Shown: positions 31,690 through 64,000 of the stretch, in pieces | Layout: every line of letters starts with the position of its first letter | Position numbering within the stretch: position 1 is the stretch's first letter | DNA from: Denitratisoma oestradiolicum | GTDB taxonomy: Bacteria; Pseudomonadota; Gammaproteobacteria; Burkholderiales; Rhodocyclaceae | Direction: 5' to 3' | Assembly (NCBI RefSeq): GCF_902813185.1 | Contig: NZ_LR778301.1 | Location: forward strand, 3,328,001-3,392,000 | Length of the DNA stretch: 64,000 bases | Position numbers and translations under genes: made by a program | The notes under the pieces: generated by a model | Told to the model about the DNA's origin: nothing | What the model saw: only the letters and a program-made list of their open reading frames with translations | Databases searched by the model: none

Positions 31690-32697
31690 ATGAGAACAGG
31701 CACTAGGCTCTCCGCCCTCTGGCGTTCCCGGAGCCTGACGGCCTGCCTGCTGCTGCCCCTGGGACTGATCTTCGCCGCCCTCGCCGCCCTGCGCCGGCAA
31801 TGCTACCGCCTCGGCCTGCTGCCAAGGGCACGTCTGCCAGTGCCGGTGGTGGTGGTGGGCAACATCATCGCCGGGGGCGCCGGCAAGACCCCCCTGACCC
31901 TCTACCTGGCCCGGCGCCTCAGGGAGCTGGGCCGCCACCCGGGCATCGTCAGCCGGGGCTACGGCGGCACCGGCCGGGTGGCCGAGGTGCTGGGGAATGG
32001 CGATCCCGCAGTCGTGGGCGATGAACCGCTGCTGATGAAGCGCCGCTTCGGCGGCCCGGTCTTCGTCGGCCGGCGCCGGGCCGAGGCGGCCCGTGCCCTG
32101 CTGGCGGCCCATCCGGACTGCGACCTGATTCTTTGCGACGACGGGCTCCAGCATTACGCCCTGGCACGGGATATGGAAATCGCCGTGCTGGACCGGCGCG
32201 GCCTGATGAATGGCTGGCCCCTGCCGGCCGGTCCCCTGCGGGAGCCGCCGGCCCGGCTGAAGGAGGTTCAGGCCCTGGTGACCCAGGGGCTGGAGACCTG
32301 GCCAGAAAACACCGTACCGCGATTTTCCATGGTTCTGGAGGGAAGCCGATTTGTCCGTCTCGATGATTCGAACCGCCATTGCGAAAGCAGCGAACTGGCG
32401 GGGCTGCGCCTCCACGCCGTGGCCGGCATCGGCGAACCCCGCCGTTTCTTCGATCATCTGGAGGCCCTGGGCCTCTCCTTCACGCCCCACGCCTTTCCGG
32501 ACCATCATCCCTATACCCTGGCCGATCTGGACTTCAGCGGGGATGGAATCCTGACCACGGAAAAGGATGCAGTAAAATTCCCCGCCTTCCTCCCCCTGCC
32601 CGTCTGGGTGCTGCCGGTGGAGGCCCGACTCGAACCCGATCCGGCCCAGTGGGTGCTGGAATTACTGGAGAAGTCCCATGGACACCCGCCTGCTTGA
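31690..32697 (+). CDS. lpxK: Tetraacyldisaccharide 4'-kinase
   Basis: A 335-residue kinase that phosphorylates the 4' position of the lipid A disaccharide precursor at the cytoplasmic face of the inner membrane. An N-terminal hydrophobic helix (residues 14-34) is followed by [23 protein letters not shown] with the Walker A motif GGAGKT, then [11 protein letters not shown] and [32 protein letters not shown] and the conserved [11 protein letters not shown] are near the C-terminus. All family marks are present. Its 3' end overlaps the next gene by 20 bases. Confidence 0.95.
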
Positions 32698-32854
32698 GAT
32701 TCTTGTCTGCCCCCTGTGCAAGGGCCCCCTCGACTATCGCAAGCACCGCTCGGAACTGGTGTGCAAGCCTTGCCGGCTGGCCTATCCGGTCAAGGACGAC
32801 ATCCCGGTAATGCTGGAGGGCGAGGCCCGCCAGATGCCCGCCGACGAGGAGTGA
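32678..32854 (+). CDS. ycaR: Trm112/UPF0434 family zinc-ribbon-like protein
   Basis: A 58-residue protein, [20 protein letters not shown] at the start, with paired cysteines CPLC and CKPC and the conserved tail [18 protein letters not shown]. This is the Trm112p-like family that sits between lpxK and kdsB in many Proteobacteria. The ATG at 32678 has a GGAG box 7 bases upstream and overlaps the end of lpxK by 20 bases. Its precise function in bacteria is unclear to me. Confidence 0.9.
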
Positions 32855-32966
32855 GCCCCCCCTACCAGCCTCCACCGCCAAGCGGGGATGGGGCAAGCCC
32901 CTCCCCGCAGCGGGATGGAGACAACACCCCCTCCCACCCTCCCCCGCCAAGCGGGGGAGGTGACCA
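32855..32966. repeat. GC-rich palindromic stretch upstream of repeat family 3
   Basis: Between ycaR and the family 3 element lie further short inverted repeats, for example CCCCCGCCAAGCGGGGG (32941-32957) and GGGGCAAGCCCC (32891-32902). The stretch has no coding character. It makes the gap in this otherwise tight operon about 200 bases long. Confidence 0.55.
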
Positions 32967-33051
32967 GTCACCCCCTTCCTCGGGAAGGGGGAGGGGGGGA
33001 TGGCAGTCAGATTCCCCCCAGGGAAGCGCTGGCGCTTCCCTGGGGGGAAGG
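32967..33051 (+). repeat. Dispersed repeat family 3, copy 1 (two-hairpin element)
   Basis: About 85 bases matching 63559-63642. Hairpin 1 is CCCCCTTCC/GGAAGGGGG (32971-32991, TCG loop). Hairpin 2 is a perfect 18-base inverted repeat, 33012-33029 with 33032-33049, separated by only TG. Its right arm, ending GGGGGGAAGG, is the only candidate Shine-Dalgarno for kdsB, whose GTG starts at 33058. The ribosome-binding site therefore lies inside a very stable stem. Confidence 0.75.
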
Positions 33052-33057
33052 TTCAAA

Positions 33058-33819
33058 GTGGTTATTCCCGCGCGCTACGCCTCAATTCGGCTGCCGGGCA
33101 AGCCTTTGGCGGACATTGCCGGCCGACCCATGGTGGTGCGGGTGATCGAGGCAGCCAAGCGTAGCGGCGCCAGGGAGGTCTGGGTGGCTACGGATGACGA
33201 ACGCATCCGTACCGCCGTGGAGGCCCACGGCCACCAGGCCCTGATGACCCGCAGCGACCATGCCAGTGGCACCGACCGCATCGCCGAAGTGGCGGCGCAA
33301 CTGGGCTGGGGCGATGACGAGATCGTGGTCAATGTGCAGGGGGACGAACCCCTGATCGACCCGGCTCTGGTGGCCCGGGTGGCCAGGGCGCTGGAGGAGG
33401 ATCCGACGGCGGCCATCGCCACCGCCTGCCATCCGATCCGGGAGGCGGAAGAATTCTTCAATCCCAATGTGGTCAAGGTGGCACTGGACAGCGCCGGACG
33501 GGCCCATTACTTTTCCCGGGCGCCGATCCCCTACGCCCGGGATGCCTTCGTCCAGCGCCGGGACATCCTGCCCGAGGGCTTCCCGGCCCAGCGCCATATC
33601 GGCCTGTACGCCTACCGGGTGTCATTTCTCCGGCGCTATGGCACCCTGCCCCCGGCCCCCACGGAACAATGGGAGTCCCTGGAACAGTTGCGCGCCCTCT
33701 GGCATGGCTTCGCCATCCGGGTCGTCCAATGCGAACAGGCGCCACCGGCCGGCGTGGATACGCCGGAAGACCTGGAGCGAGTACGGCGGGCGTTTGACCC
33801 GGCCGGGAATTGCCGGTAA
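33058..33819 (+). CDS. kdsB: 3-deoxy-manno-octulosonate cytidylyltransferase (CMP-KDO synthetase)
   Basis: A 253-residue enzyme activating KDO with CTP for LPS inner core synthesis. It starts at [20 protein letters not shown], with the nucleotide-binding R-x6-GKPL pattern; [27 protein letters not shown] and [13 protein letters not shown] follow, and [12 protein letters not shown] is near the C-terminus. GTG at 33058 is chosen because no ATG lies near the family start and GGGGGGAAGG is 6-7 bases upstream. The usual start region (M-x-F-x-V-V) appears replaced by the family 3 repeat, which runs in frame into the gene. Otherwise intact. Confidence 0.94.
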
Positions 33820-39322: not shown

Positions 39323-39330
39323 TCGCCCGC

Positions 39331-39412
39331 TTCCGAGGAGCGCTGCAAGGCGGTGGGCTGAACATCAGGCCCCGGCCCTAGGCTCGGAACTTTTATTCAA
39401 CGGCGCTCACCG
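39331..39412 (+). ncRNA. SAH riboswitch (S-adenosylhomocysteine)
   Basis: Matches the SAH riboswitch consensus: CCGAGGAGCGCTGCAA at 39333-39348, AGGCTCGG at 39380-39387 and AACGGCGCTCAC at 39399-39410. P1 pairs CCGAG (39333-39337) with CTCGG (39383-39387). The pseudoknot pairs GAGCGC (39338-39343) with GCGCTC (39403-39408). Known members switch on SAH-recycling genes such as ahcY and metH when SAH rises. It lies 75 bases before the metH start. Confidence 0.92.
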
Positions 39413-39486
39413 AACCTGGAATATCCGCCGGGACACAGGTGAGCCGCTTGAGCGCTCCGGTCCCGGTCATGGATTTGGAGATTGCT

Positions 39487-61498: not shown

Positions 61499-63310
61499 AT
61501 GCCGAAATCCTTCAACTTCGCAGCCCCGCCCTTCGACAGCCTCGACTCCGCTGAGCGGGAACGGGTGCGAGCCGCCCTGGATATCGGCTACTACCGCGCC
61601 GGCGAGGTGATCCTGGATGCCCACGCATCCCCCGCCCATCTGCATGTCCTGATCAAGGGCGTCGTCCTTCAGCAGGTCGGCGACGAAACCGTGGCCAGCT
61701 ATGGCCGCGACGACTACTTCGACATGCGCGGCCTGGTGGCCGGCAACAGCAGCAGCCGCTTCGTCGCCGGCCAGGAAGTACTGACCTATCTGCTGCCCAA
61801 GGACATGATCCAGGAACTGATTTCCGCCAATGCCCAGTTCGGCGCCATGCTCTTTTCGGAGCTTTCCGAGAAGCTCGATGCCCTGGCCGAGCGGGGCGGC
61901 CGACGCGAACTGCATTCCCTGCTCACCGCACGGGTCTCCCAGGCCTTCGTGCGCCAGGCCTGCCATGTGGATGGCGATACCCCGGTGAGCGAAGTGGTAC
62001 GCCTGATGATGGAGCGAAAAATATCCTGCGTACTGGTGGATGACAGGGCGCGCCTGGGCATCTTCACCACCACCGACCTGCAAAAGGCCGCCATTTCCGG
62101 CCAGGACTGCGCCCGGCTCCGGGTCAGGGACTTTTCCAGCTTCAGGCTGGTCACCGTGCACAGGCAGGATTTCGTCTTCGACGCCCTGGTGGCCATGATC
62201 CGCAAGGGTATTCACCGCCTGGTGGTGCTGGACGGCGAGCGAATCTTCGGCATTCTGGAACAGCTCGACCTGTTGAGCTTCCTGGCCAACCACTCCCACA
62301 TCATCTCCTTGCAGATAGAGCAGGCGCACAGCGTGGCGGACCTGGAAGCGGTGGCGCCCCAGGTCCAGCGACTGATCGCCATCCTCGACGGCGGCGGGGT
62401 CAAGGTGGAACTGATCGCCCGGCTGGCCCAGGAACTCAATCGGCAGATTTTTGCCAAAGTCTGGCAGTTGGTGGCCCCCGCCGCGCTACAGGCCTGCAGT
62501 TGTCTGCTGGTGATGGGCAGCGAGGGCAGGGGCGAGCAGGTGCTGCGTACGGATCAGGACAATGCCCTGCTGATCGCCGATGACTACCAGGGCGCCGACA
62601 TCGAGGACGCATGTAATCACTTCAATCAGGTGCTGAAAAATTTCGGTTACCCGGAATGCCCCGGCAACATCATGGCCAGGAACCCCCTCTGGCGCCAGTC
62701 TCTGGGACGCTTCAAGGAAACCCTGCGGCACTGGGTCCATGAGCCCAGCGCCGAATCCCAGATGAACCTGGCCATCTTCATGGATGGGGCGGCGGTAGCC
62801 GGAGACAGCGAACTGCTGGAGGAAGCCCGAGCCCATCTGTTTTCTCTGGTCACTGACCACGCCGGTTTCTTCGGCCACTTCGCCCGAGCCATCGACATCT
62901 TTGACGAACCGGGACACTGGTGGTCCCGGGTACTGCATCTGGGTGCCGACGAAGGCGTCGTAATCGACCTGAAAAAGCAGGGCATCTTTCCCATCGTCCA
63001 CGGCGTGCGTGCCCTGGCCCTGGAAGGCGCCTTGAACCAGGTTGGCACCGTGGCCCGGCTTGAGGCCCTGGCCCAGACCCAGGTACTGGAGCGAGGCATG
63101 GCGGAGGAACTGACCCAGGCCCTCCATTACCTGATGGGCCTGCGCCTCAAGGCCGGCCTGCAAAGCCTCGCCCTGGGACAGTCCCCGGACACCCTGATCC
63201 GTCTCGACAGCCTCACGTCCTTCGAACGGGACATTCTCAAGGATTGCCTGCATCAGGTAAAACGCTTCAAGGCCCTGCTGCACCACCACTTCCACCTGGA
63301 GGCATTCTGA
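61499..63310 (+). CDS. cNMP-binding/CBS/DUF294 nucleotidyltransferase-like protein
   Basis: A 603-residue cytoplasmic protein. Residues 10-125 are a cyclic-nucleotide-binding-like domain, about 140-265 are two CBS repeats (VSEVVRLMMERKISCVLVDD and FDALVAMIRKGIHRLVVLDG), about 310-450 is the DUF294 nucleotidyltransferase-like domain with CLLVMGSEGRGEQVLRTDQDNALLI, which keeps the G-S and D-x-D-like residues of the GlnD-type fold, and 460-600 is the helical DUF294_C domain. Such proteins are signal-regulated nucleotidyltransferase-like regulators, often encoded next to a DnaQ-like exonuclease and acetate/solute symporters. Here the exonuclease follows after 339 bases of repeats. Confidence 0.9.
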   Translation: MPKSFNFAAPPFDSLDSAERERVRAALDIGYYRAGEVILDAHASPAHLHVLIKGVVLQQVGDETVASYGRDDYFDMRGLVAGNSSSRFVAGQEVLTYLLPKDMIQELISANAQFGAMLFSELSEKLDALAERGGRRELHSLLTARVSQAFVRQACHVDGDTPVSEVVRLMMERKISCVLVDDRARLGIFTTTDLQKAAISGQDCARLRVRDFSSFRLVTVHRQDFVFDALVAMIRKGIHRLVVLDGERIFGILEQLDLLSFLANHSHIISLQIEQAHSVADLEAVAPQVQRLIAILDGGGVKVELIARLAQELNRQIFAKVWQLVAPAALQACSCLLVMGSEGRGEQVLRTDQDNALLIADDYQGADIEDACNHFNQVLKNFGYPECPGNIMARNPLWRQSLGRFKETLRHWVHEPSAESQMNLAIFMDGAAVAGDSELLEEARAHLFSLVTDHAGFFGHFARAIDIFDEPGHWWSRVLHLGADEGVVIDLKKQGIFPIVHGVRALALEGALNQVGTVARLEALAQTQVLERGMAEELTQALHYLMGLRLKAGLQSLALGQSPDTLIRLDSLTSFERDILKDCLHQVKRFKALLHHHFHLEAF

Positions 63311-63330
63311 ATGGACCTAAAAACCGCAAA

Positions 63331-63468
63331 TCCAGCCATAGAGATCACAGAGGACACAGAGTCGGCGCGGGTCTGCCGTGGTTCGCCATTTCACCCTACA
63401 TGCGTGTCATTGCCCCCCCCTTGCAACTTACTGATCTTCCTCTGTGATCTCTGTGTCCTCTGTGGCTA
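63331..63468. repeat. Dispersed repeat family 2, copy 2 (MITE-like)
   Basis: About 138 bases, same organisation as 43210-43344: left end TCCAGCCATAGAGATCACAG, a middle with CCGTGGTTCG and TCACCCTAC, and right end CTCTGTGTCCTCTGTGGCTA. It begins 20 bases after the DUF294 stop, comparable to 16 bases after metH for copy 1. Confidence 0.75.
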
Positions 63469-63558
63469 ACTGAGGTTTTAAGTATGAAACGACCCCATGC
63501 TCACTGCGTTCGTTGCCCCCCGAGGGGGCGCATTACACAATCCGGAGCCGCAACCGCC

Positions 63559-63642
63559 GTCACCCCCTCCCTCGGGGAGGGGGCTGGGGGGAGTGTCCTC
63601 CAATTCCCCACGGGGTTCGCCTCGCGACCTCCGTGGGGAGGG
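63559..63642 (+). repeat. Dispersed repeat family 3, copy 2 (two-hairpin element)
   Basis: About 84 bases corresponding to 32967-33051. Hairpin 1 is CCCCCTCCC/GGGAGGGGG (63563-63583, TCG loop), differing from copy 1 by a T-A to C-G pair change. Hairpin 2 spans 63605-63639 (TCCCCACGG with CCGTGGGGA, inner TCGC/GCGA). The right arm ends GGGGAGGG, a Shine-Dalgarno-like sequence 8 bases before the GTG of the exonuclease gene. A CCCCCGAGGGGG hairpin lies just left (63514-63525). Confidence 0.72.
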
Positions 63643-63649
63643 TAGTCCA

Positions 63650-64000
63650 GTGAGCCTGCTGCGCCGCCTGCAAGGGCTCTGGTGGCGCCGGCGCTTGCTG
63701 CGCTCCGAGTTCCGCCACCTCTTCGACGAACCGCCGGACGGAGAATGGGTCGCCGTGGATTGCGAAACCACGGGCCTCGACACCGCTCGGGACGAGATCG
63801 TTTCCATCGGCGCGGTACCCATTCGGGGCCAGCAAATATTGACCAGCAAGCGGCTGGAATTGCTGGTCAGGCCCACTCTCGCCCCCAGCGCCTCCAGCAT
63901 CCGCATCCATCACCTGCGGGAAATGGACGTGCAGGGAGGCCTGGCGCCGGATGAGGCCATCCACCGTTTCCTGGAATTCGTCGGTCCCCGTCCCCTGGTG
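63650..64000 (+). CDS. DnaQ-family 3'-5' exonuclease, N-terminal part
   Basis: 117 codons, running off the right edge. Starting at GTG 63650 the protein reads VSLLRRLQGLWWRRRLLRSE, then WVAVDCETTGLDTARDEIVS with exonuclease motif I (D-x-E), then IHHLREMDVQGG, the region leading to motif II. It matches the epsilon-like exonuclease that accompanies DUF294 proteins. GGGGAGGG is 8 bases upstream of the GTG. Motifs II and III lie partly beyond the window. Confidence 0.85.
   Translation, partial: MSLLRRLQGLWWRRRLLRSEFRHLFDEPPDGEWVAVDCETTGLDTARDEIVSIGAVPIRGQQILTSKRLELLVRPTLAPSASSIRIHHLREMDVQGGLAPDEAIHRFLEFVGPRPLV

Follow-up and report, generated by a model that had tools for sequence, protein, structure and literature searches.

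Four described systems come nearest to the repeat analysed here: REP/RAYT, BRE, the TAACTGA repeats of Beggiatoaceae and the pneumococcal BOX. In REP/BIME systems, the rayt gene is flanked by two inverted REPs and the head reads GT(A/G)G, according to the accessible text (PMC2817692). The element shares with them, as portrayed there, short GC-rich palindromes, many copies, compensatory changes and inverted pairs (PMC2817692). Unlike REP/BIME, it sits at stop/start junctions with a Shine-Dalgarno (SD) sequence on the facing edge, and 0/21 Y1_Tnp loci carry it. BRE is similar in being about 90 bp long, GC-rich, tandem and present in Betaproteobacteria including one member of the Rhodocyclaceae, Azoarcus sp. 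EbN1 (PMC3110155, available portion); this portion, compared with the element by description only, describes no link of BRE to a start codon, an SD or an RTGA, in contrast to the element. BRE could be a relative of it. The TAACTGA direct repeats are likewise forward-oriented and immediately upstream of start codons, but they are 7-nt units with little SD character, for which the text consulted proposes a role as the binding site of a post-transcriptional regulator and no SD of their own (PMC4679880). The pneumococcal BOX, RUP and SPRITE repeats are also small, interspersed, probably parasitic, and sometimes give ORFs a stop or start codon; BOX differs in that the BOX-encoded ORFs treated there are without good SD candidates, and no preference for stop/start overlaps is described in the excerpted source (PMC3049150). 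As far as these partial sources go, none of the four systems both enters stop/start overlaps and bears an SD on the edge turned towards the gene, and an open-licence literature search found no description of SD-carrying repeats at stop/start overlaps.

The window, i.e., the 64,000 nucleotides analysed from the genome under study (Denitratisoma oestradiolicum, G000, 4.29 Mb), holds two copies of the element, at 32967-33051 in front of kdsB and at 63559-63642 in front of an exonuclease gene. An earlier note had described them as an 85-base element with two hairpins, whose end supplies the ribosome-binding site of the gene behind it, and both copies are indeed found there with two hairpins each. 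The true unit differs from these 85 bases, however, in comprising three hairpins and a G-rich tail, and the comparison of just two copies missed the main signal, a stop codon at the left side. According to the sequences compared, these are probably small, apparently non-autonomous mobile repeats that insert at RTGA overlaps, where their edge would replace the native SD.

With its three hairpins, the unit measures about 105-112 nt, and the first hairpin of the earlier note is its third, HC. Read side by side, the units follow the order TGAGC, HA, linker, HB, HC, tail CnGGGGGGAGGG, some seven bases (often TAGTCCA) and a start codon. HA has a variable stem and the loop core GGCCGYCC, HB takes the form GGA-stem-GAACC, and HC reads CACCCCCYTCC-TCG-GGARGGGGG and is followed by the G-rich tail. 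In the window, HC is CCCCCTTCC-TCG-GGAAGGGGG at kdsB (32971-32991) and CCCCCTCCC-TCG-GGGAGGGGG in the second copy (63563-63583). The T-A to C-G exchange between them, cited previously as compensatory, is genuine, since over 24 units this pair is C-G in 14, U-A in 9 and U-G in 1. The second hairpin of the earlier note folds at -37.6 kcal/mol in the kdsB copy and -28.2 kcal/mol in the second copy, and on inspection it is a decayed extra module in both; fuller extra modules, such as those at G000:C1:829391 and 2885435, contain a further HC. An intrinsic terminator was rejected by eye, as a T-run is absent after HC.

Conservation of the structure, which had been deduced from a single exchange, is borne out by strong covariation. 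Across the three stems of 24 aligned units, 94.0% of the cells are paired against 80.4% after shuffling, and 60 are double changes against 19.8, a value reached in 0/500 shuffles; sliding the stem partners abolishes the signal. This covariation lends support to the structure but does not amount to a probability, as the copies are related and hairpin arms can template each other. It could also be taken to mean that the stem-loops act as RNA, either as a regulatory 5' region or as an mRNA stabiliser, with alternate pairing that opens or closes the SD; the 5' arm, CCCTCCC, looks able to pair either with the HC arm or with the tail GGGAGGG. Such an RNA role is rather improbable, because the downstream genes have no common function (lpxA, fis, tolA, bioC, pccB, nudB and hoxU, among others), and covariation can also arise when hairpin arms copy one another or when the DNA acts as a single strand. 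No Rfam family reaches its gathering score in either window copy, and the five Rfam matches to a complete unit (L107, 1350-1560) all fall below it.

The recurrence of HC is far beyond chance: with up to 3 mismatches it has 82 matches in G000, against 0 for the reversed pattern. Many short palindromes, some of them in inverted pairs by inspection, are thus present as in REP/BIME. GGAG, which we take to count as a REP head tetranucleotide, precedes HB in most units, not HC. In G000, the repeat model R1 has 92 matches at E<=0.01. At E<=0.001, it has matches in 15 of 61 genomes (G000 included) and none among the scored candidates of the other 46; G001, of the same genus, holds at least 29 copies, G003 at least 56, G008 at least 60 and G012 at least 64, and the remaining genomes 1 to 13. 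This search scored no more than 64 candidates per genome and gives 63 for G000 itself, which makes its high counts lower bounds. Across the order, R1 was found in 6/399 genomes including G000, one of them (G118) from another family, and across the class in 1/369, which is G000 itself; the absences in both searches are soft, because only 9-10 candidates per genome were scored. On 37 of 67 named kdsB loci, R1 gave one weak match (L162, E=0.005). The plasmid records searched have no match to the element. The phage records have two weak ones, over 38 query bases (87-90%) of HC and tail, in the microviruses MZ364244.1 and MZ364246.1, perhaps a chance similarity of G-rich hairpins. Some copies stand in tandem: four nearly identical 113-nt units lie ahead of a carboxyltransferase gene (G000:C1:1645820-1646263), and five units lie at G000:C1:535174-535722. 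Both arrays have the appearance of variable-number tandem repeats located between genes. The elements at G000:C1:1083130 and 2659648 are the same, flanks included, over the roughly 250 nt read, which makes a larger duplication probable.

The placement of the element was classified for 120 arrays from 15 genomes, 44 from G000 and 76 best-scoring elsewhere, which is not a random draw. For G000, 15 of the 92 R1 matches were weaker than E=1.8e-5 and were left out of the array count; 65 of the 77 others were kept, after setting aside three rows without fetched sequence (126192, 633479 and 1758738), the duplicate copy 2659648, and eight composite, partial or weak rows, the kdsB copy being one of these. 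For the other genomes, 60 of 63 matches of one search were used (three partial or overlapping ones dropped), together with 25 of 36 from a further search, from which four of G185, a genome sharing its genus with G021, and seven weak or overlong ones were dropped. One L297 unit was added; L297 and L300 are near-identical loci, both counted and both classed as neither. Arrays were called forward when an upstream stop stands at the left edge and a start 2-12 nt past the tail (69-76 nt with an extra module), and reverse when the mirror image of this arrangement is found on the other strand. Gene names outside the Pfam-tested sets come from inspection of translations.

As the earlier note expected, the copies are not placed at random in distance or orientation. 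Of the 120 arrays, 53 are forward, with a stop on their upstream side and a start behind them, 24 are mirror images and 43 are neither, whereas random places in the fetched loci give 1.2% forward and 1.7% mirror-image. In the forward arrays, the first start codon comes 7 nt past the tail in 23, 6 nt in 11, at another distance of 2-11 nt in 13, and behind an extra module in 6, so that the G-rich, SD-like tail lies 6-7 nt ahead of a start in 34/53. The arrays that are neither at these thresholds count against the explanation; 25/43 of them do have a start codon 2-9 nt past the tail, but chance alone places one that opens 60 codons or more there at 14.2%. A pattern beginning TGAGC picked out fifteen left ends, which builds in the TGA itself, though not an ORF ending there; in 14/15 this TGA closes an ORF with a minimum of 100 codons, compared with 11.6% of 335 control TGAs, the fifteenth being a junction of tandem units. 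The right-end pattern stops short of the start codon, and 30 of its 39 matches were read: an RTG/TTG start follows in 21, another unit in 5 and an extra module in 4. Pfam families were found in 8/10 of the downstream proteins tested.

Many of these junctions are overlaps in relatives that lack the element there. Twenty-five downstream genes were looked up (22 plus lpxA, rarA, pccB and kdsB, with pccB in both sets), and for 14/25 junctions at least one relative lacking the element at that gene has a bare RTGA (ATGA or GTGA) overlap with ORFs checked on both sides: lpxA, rarA, nudB, hyfC, rseP, lysM, mnhG, bioC, hoxU, fis, tolA, cofC, kdsB and nit2. Thus, at these sites the element went into overlaps that already existed. 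The fabZ-lpxA junction reads ATCGAATGAGCGG in G001 against ATCGAATGAGCGcccc...gtccaATGAGCGG in G000, and that of mnhG reads gagccATGAGCGCGG against gagccATGAGCGCCG...gcgtATGACTGCC. After the two-sided ORF check, rarA in G008 was not counted as an empty site, and for nit2 and nudB the G000 arrays themselves are classed as neither. At 8/25 junctions the relatives read give no RTGA overlap or an unclear arrangement (pccB and fadJ, both with TGATG, flgF, ldcC, lptB, a glycosyltransferase-like gene, pilW and btuF), and 3/25 were not read.

Where the element is present, RTGA tends to flank it. Left and right tetranucleotides among the 53 forward arrays are A/A in 20, A/G in 12, G/A in 3 and G/G in 2. 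In G000, the left side is ATGA in 23/26 forward arrays, the other three having neither ATGA nor GTGA there, and the right side of those 23 is ATGA in 13, GTGA in 9 and TTGA in 1. A clean target duplication is not proven, because left and right are frequently mismatched. At bioC and lysM, the empty junction in G001 is ATGA, and G000 has ATGA on the left but GTGA on the right, a hint that the right copy is in part the element's own sequence.

It might be argued that these are ordinary REP/BIME-like palindromes that survive only where they do no harm, the RTGA overlap being one of the few operon positions at which an insertion that repeats 4 nt leaves both genes intact, in which case the junction pattern would be survivorship and the SD a by-product of G-rich arms. 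The palindromic units, tandem arrays and head-to-head pairs agree with this, and the flanking RTGA, a 4-nt repeat, would spare both genes. This explanation is unlikely, although it deserves weight, since ordinary intergenic space should be equally tolerant and yet 77/120 arrays lie at stop/start junctions. G-rich arms would pair with the anti-SD regardless, but tolerance does not predict an SD-like arm on the gene-facing edge unless SD function is selected.

That edge changes with orientation. Reverse copies face the downstream gene with their HA end. In the zone that reaches from 12 nt outside this edge to 14 nt inside it, CCTCC, the complement of GGAGG in the gene, is present in 14/24 reverse but 1/53 forward arrays (p=3e-8), or in 13/22 against 1/27 without G000 (p=2e-5). 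Conversely, the tail carries GGAGG in 22/53 forward and 1/24 reverse arrays (p=9e-4), a contrast that loses significance without G000 (6/27 against 1/22, p=0.11); all these tests overstate independence, given the kinship of copies from the same genome. The 14 reverse copies that have CCTCC are spread over 11 genomes, with differing surroundings, so they do not represent one lineage. The element tail pairs with the anti-SD at -11.6 kcal/mol, compared with -2.5 to -10.3 at ten empty sites; the native hoxU site is already a strong SD (-10.3).

On the explanation favoured here, these repeats insert at RTGA, above all at overlaps of a TGA stop and an RTG start; the sequences show the insertion into overlaps and the RTGA that usually stands on both sides afterwards. 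Both genes can so retain their own stop and start codons, and no change in either protein is required. Any native SD, buried in the upstream gene where the two overlap, is displaced by some 100 nt or more, and an edge of the element comes to stand in its place: in forward copies the tail GGGGGGAGGG/GGGGGGAAGG, which mostly lies 6-7 nt ahead of the start, and in reverse copies the HA arm (CCTCC, read as GGAGG). Judging from position and predicted pairing, ribosomes may well use these sites, and coupled translation would become independent initiation. If so, a parasite-like repeat has rewired the translation of core genes (lpxA, lptB, tolA, fis and perhaps kdsB), having found the one low-cost position inside a packed operon. 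A given gene pair, overlapping in one genome and parted by 112 nt with a new SD in another, would constitute a natural repeated experiment on the worth of coupling.

Single-strand transposons of the IS200/IS605 type have hairpin ends, no terminal inverted repeats and a fixed short flanking tetranucleotide. Inspection of the element revealed no terminal inverted repeats, its flanking tetranucleotide is near-fixed and its spread patchy, which together fit a single-strand mechanism acting in trans. Contrary to IS200/IS605, no transposase was found with it at the Y1_Tnp loci; set against a MITE of the DDE type, with its terminal inverted repeats and fixed-length target duplication, it has no terminal inverted repeat discernible by eye, and RTGA on both sides with frequent A/G mismatch. 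Its mobility would be provided in trans by an enzyme, perhaps a single-strand, IS200/IS605-like one. A link to RAYT was rejected: no R1 match (E<=0.1) lies within about 1.5 kb of any of 21 Y1_Tnp loci in the 18 genomes searched, the three of G000 included, and PF01797 has no match in four carriers (G004, G008, G030 and G033). A further step, which we advance tentatively and do not favour, is that the element is specialised for junctions, recognising RTGA, lying between overlapping stop and start with both proteins unaltered, presenting an SD downstream in either orientation and uncoupling the genes, and that the right RTGA may be borne by it. An element of this kind would carry its own SD and start codon.

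At the kdsB locus of the window, the operon genes run on the plus strand from lpxK (31690..32697; Pfam LpxK, E=5.7e-101) through ycaR, a Trm112-like gene (32678..32854; Trm112p on 32690-32851, E=4.9e-16), to kdsB. The TGA that ends ycaR (32852-32854) shares bases with the native GTG of kdsB, and the left side of the insertion is this GTGA stop/start overlap, GTGAGC at 32851..32856 (plus strand) with its GTG in the kdsB frame. L144, G030 and G002 have a GTGAGC or ATGAGC overlap at the ycaR-kdsB junction. The insert continues, by inspection, with a decayed palindromic repeat sequence (32857..32923, plus strand) and an inverted HC module, TCACCTCCCCCGCTTGGCGGGGGAGG plus a G-rich tail, on the minus strand (32924..32963), which forms a head-to-head pair with the HC module at 32968..33003 (plus strand; stem 32971-32979 / 32983-32991, tail GGGGGGGATGG). 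R1 matches this stretch at 32936-33003 (E=8.6e-6). The decayed extra module follows at 33011..33051 (plus strand) and, by fold and anti-SD duplex, its right end GGGGGGAAGG is the SD candidate. The regenerated RTGAGC is missing, and this copy is an old, eroded composite.

The plus-strand frame of kdsB from GTG 33058 spans 33058..33819 (Pfam CTP_transf_3, E=1.1e-59). The spacing of 7-8 bases attributed to both GTG codons comes close to the measured 6 nt (33051 to GTG 33058) and 7 nt (63642 to GTG 63650), and the right arm of the module holds up as SD candidate, with anti-SD pairing of -9.3 kcal/mol for GTG 33058 and -11.2 for GTG 63650; CTG 33040, the other in-frame candidate start, reaches -4.4. 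GTG 33058 is therefore a plausible start. KdsB could instead begin at GTG 32851, the native codon, with initiation coupled to the end of ycaR and the insert being read as a 69-codon Pro/Gly-rich N-terminal extension. This is a serious contender, albeit one we lean slightly away from. The two GTG codons are in frame over 207 nt without a stop, but chance can leave a frame open in GC-rich sequence, and another frame (32888-33145) is open too. The conserved FKVVIPAR begins at 33052, directly after the insert, so that a start at GTG 33058 would leave out what precedes V5, and most relatives keep an FxVVIPAR-type start. On the other hand, a long low-complexity extension is unusual for an essential enzyme, and GTG 33058 is well spaced from a good SD.

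The kdsB of G001 speaks for the upstream start. Just GTGAGTATGGGACGGGGGGCGGGGGGAAGG is left there, behind GTG AGT ATG and in frame ahead of TTC AGA GTA, with GTA as codon V5; as the remnant is in frame and V5 is not a GTG, the tail would be read there as KdsB protein. This remnant (L364, 307-360) translates as (VS)MGRGAGGR before FRVIIPAR. Gene callers should thus be aware that an element remnant at kdsB may be read as protein. As anatomy, the take-over of initiation by a mobile or copied element, proposed in the earlier note, is carried by the family-wide placement and the empty sites, whereas a kdsB start at GTG 33058 is not established: kdsB starts either there or at GTG 32851, the native codon, with translation running through the element. 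Take-over is supported by the family taken together, and the kdsB copy is its least certain example.

The second copy lies on the plus strand between a DUF294/CBS protein gene (61499..63310, Pfam) and an exonuclease gene (RNase_T, E=4.4e-12; 63650..64000, running past the window), both on the same strand. It consists of degenerate HA/HB, HC (63563-63583) and tail at 63512..63595 (R1 match, E=1.7e-8) and a decayed module 2 at 63603..63642, identified by fold and anti-SD duplex, which ends GGGGAGGG. The exonuclease gene begins with GTGAGC 7 nt past this tail; as its start sits behind the extra module, the copy is classed as neither. Elsewhere in the window, an SAH riboswitch is found at 39329-39415 (55.2 bits, E=1.9e-7), the sole Rfam match there. 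Immediately before the second copy, 63330-63470 contains a repeat-like inverted pair, agagatcacagaggacacagag ... ctctgtgatctctgtgtcctctgtgg.
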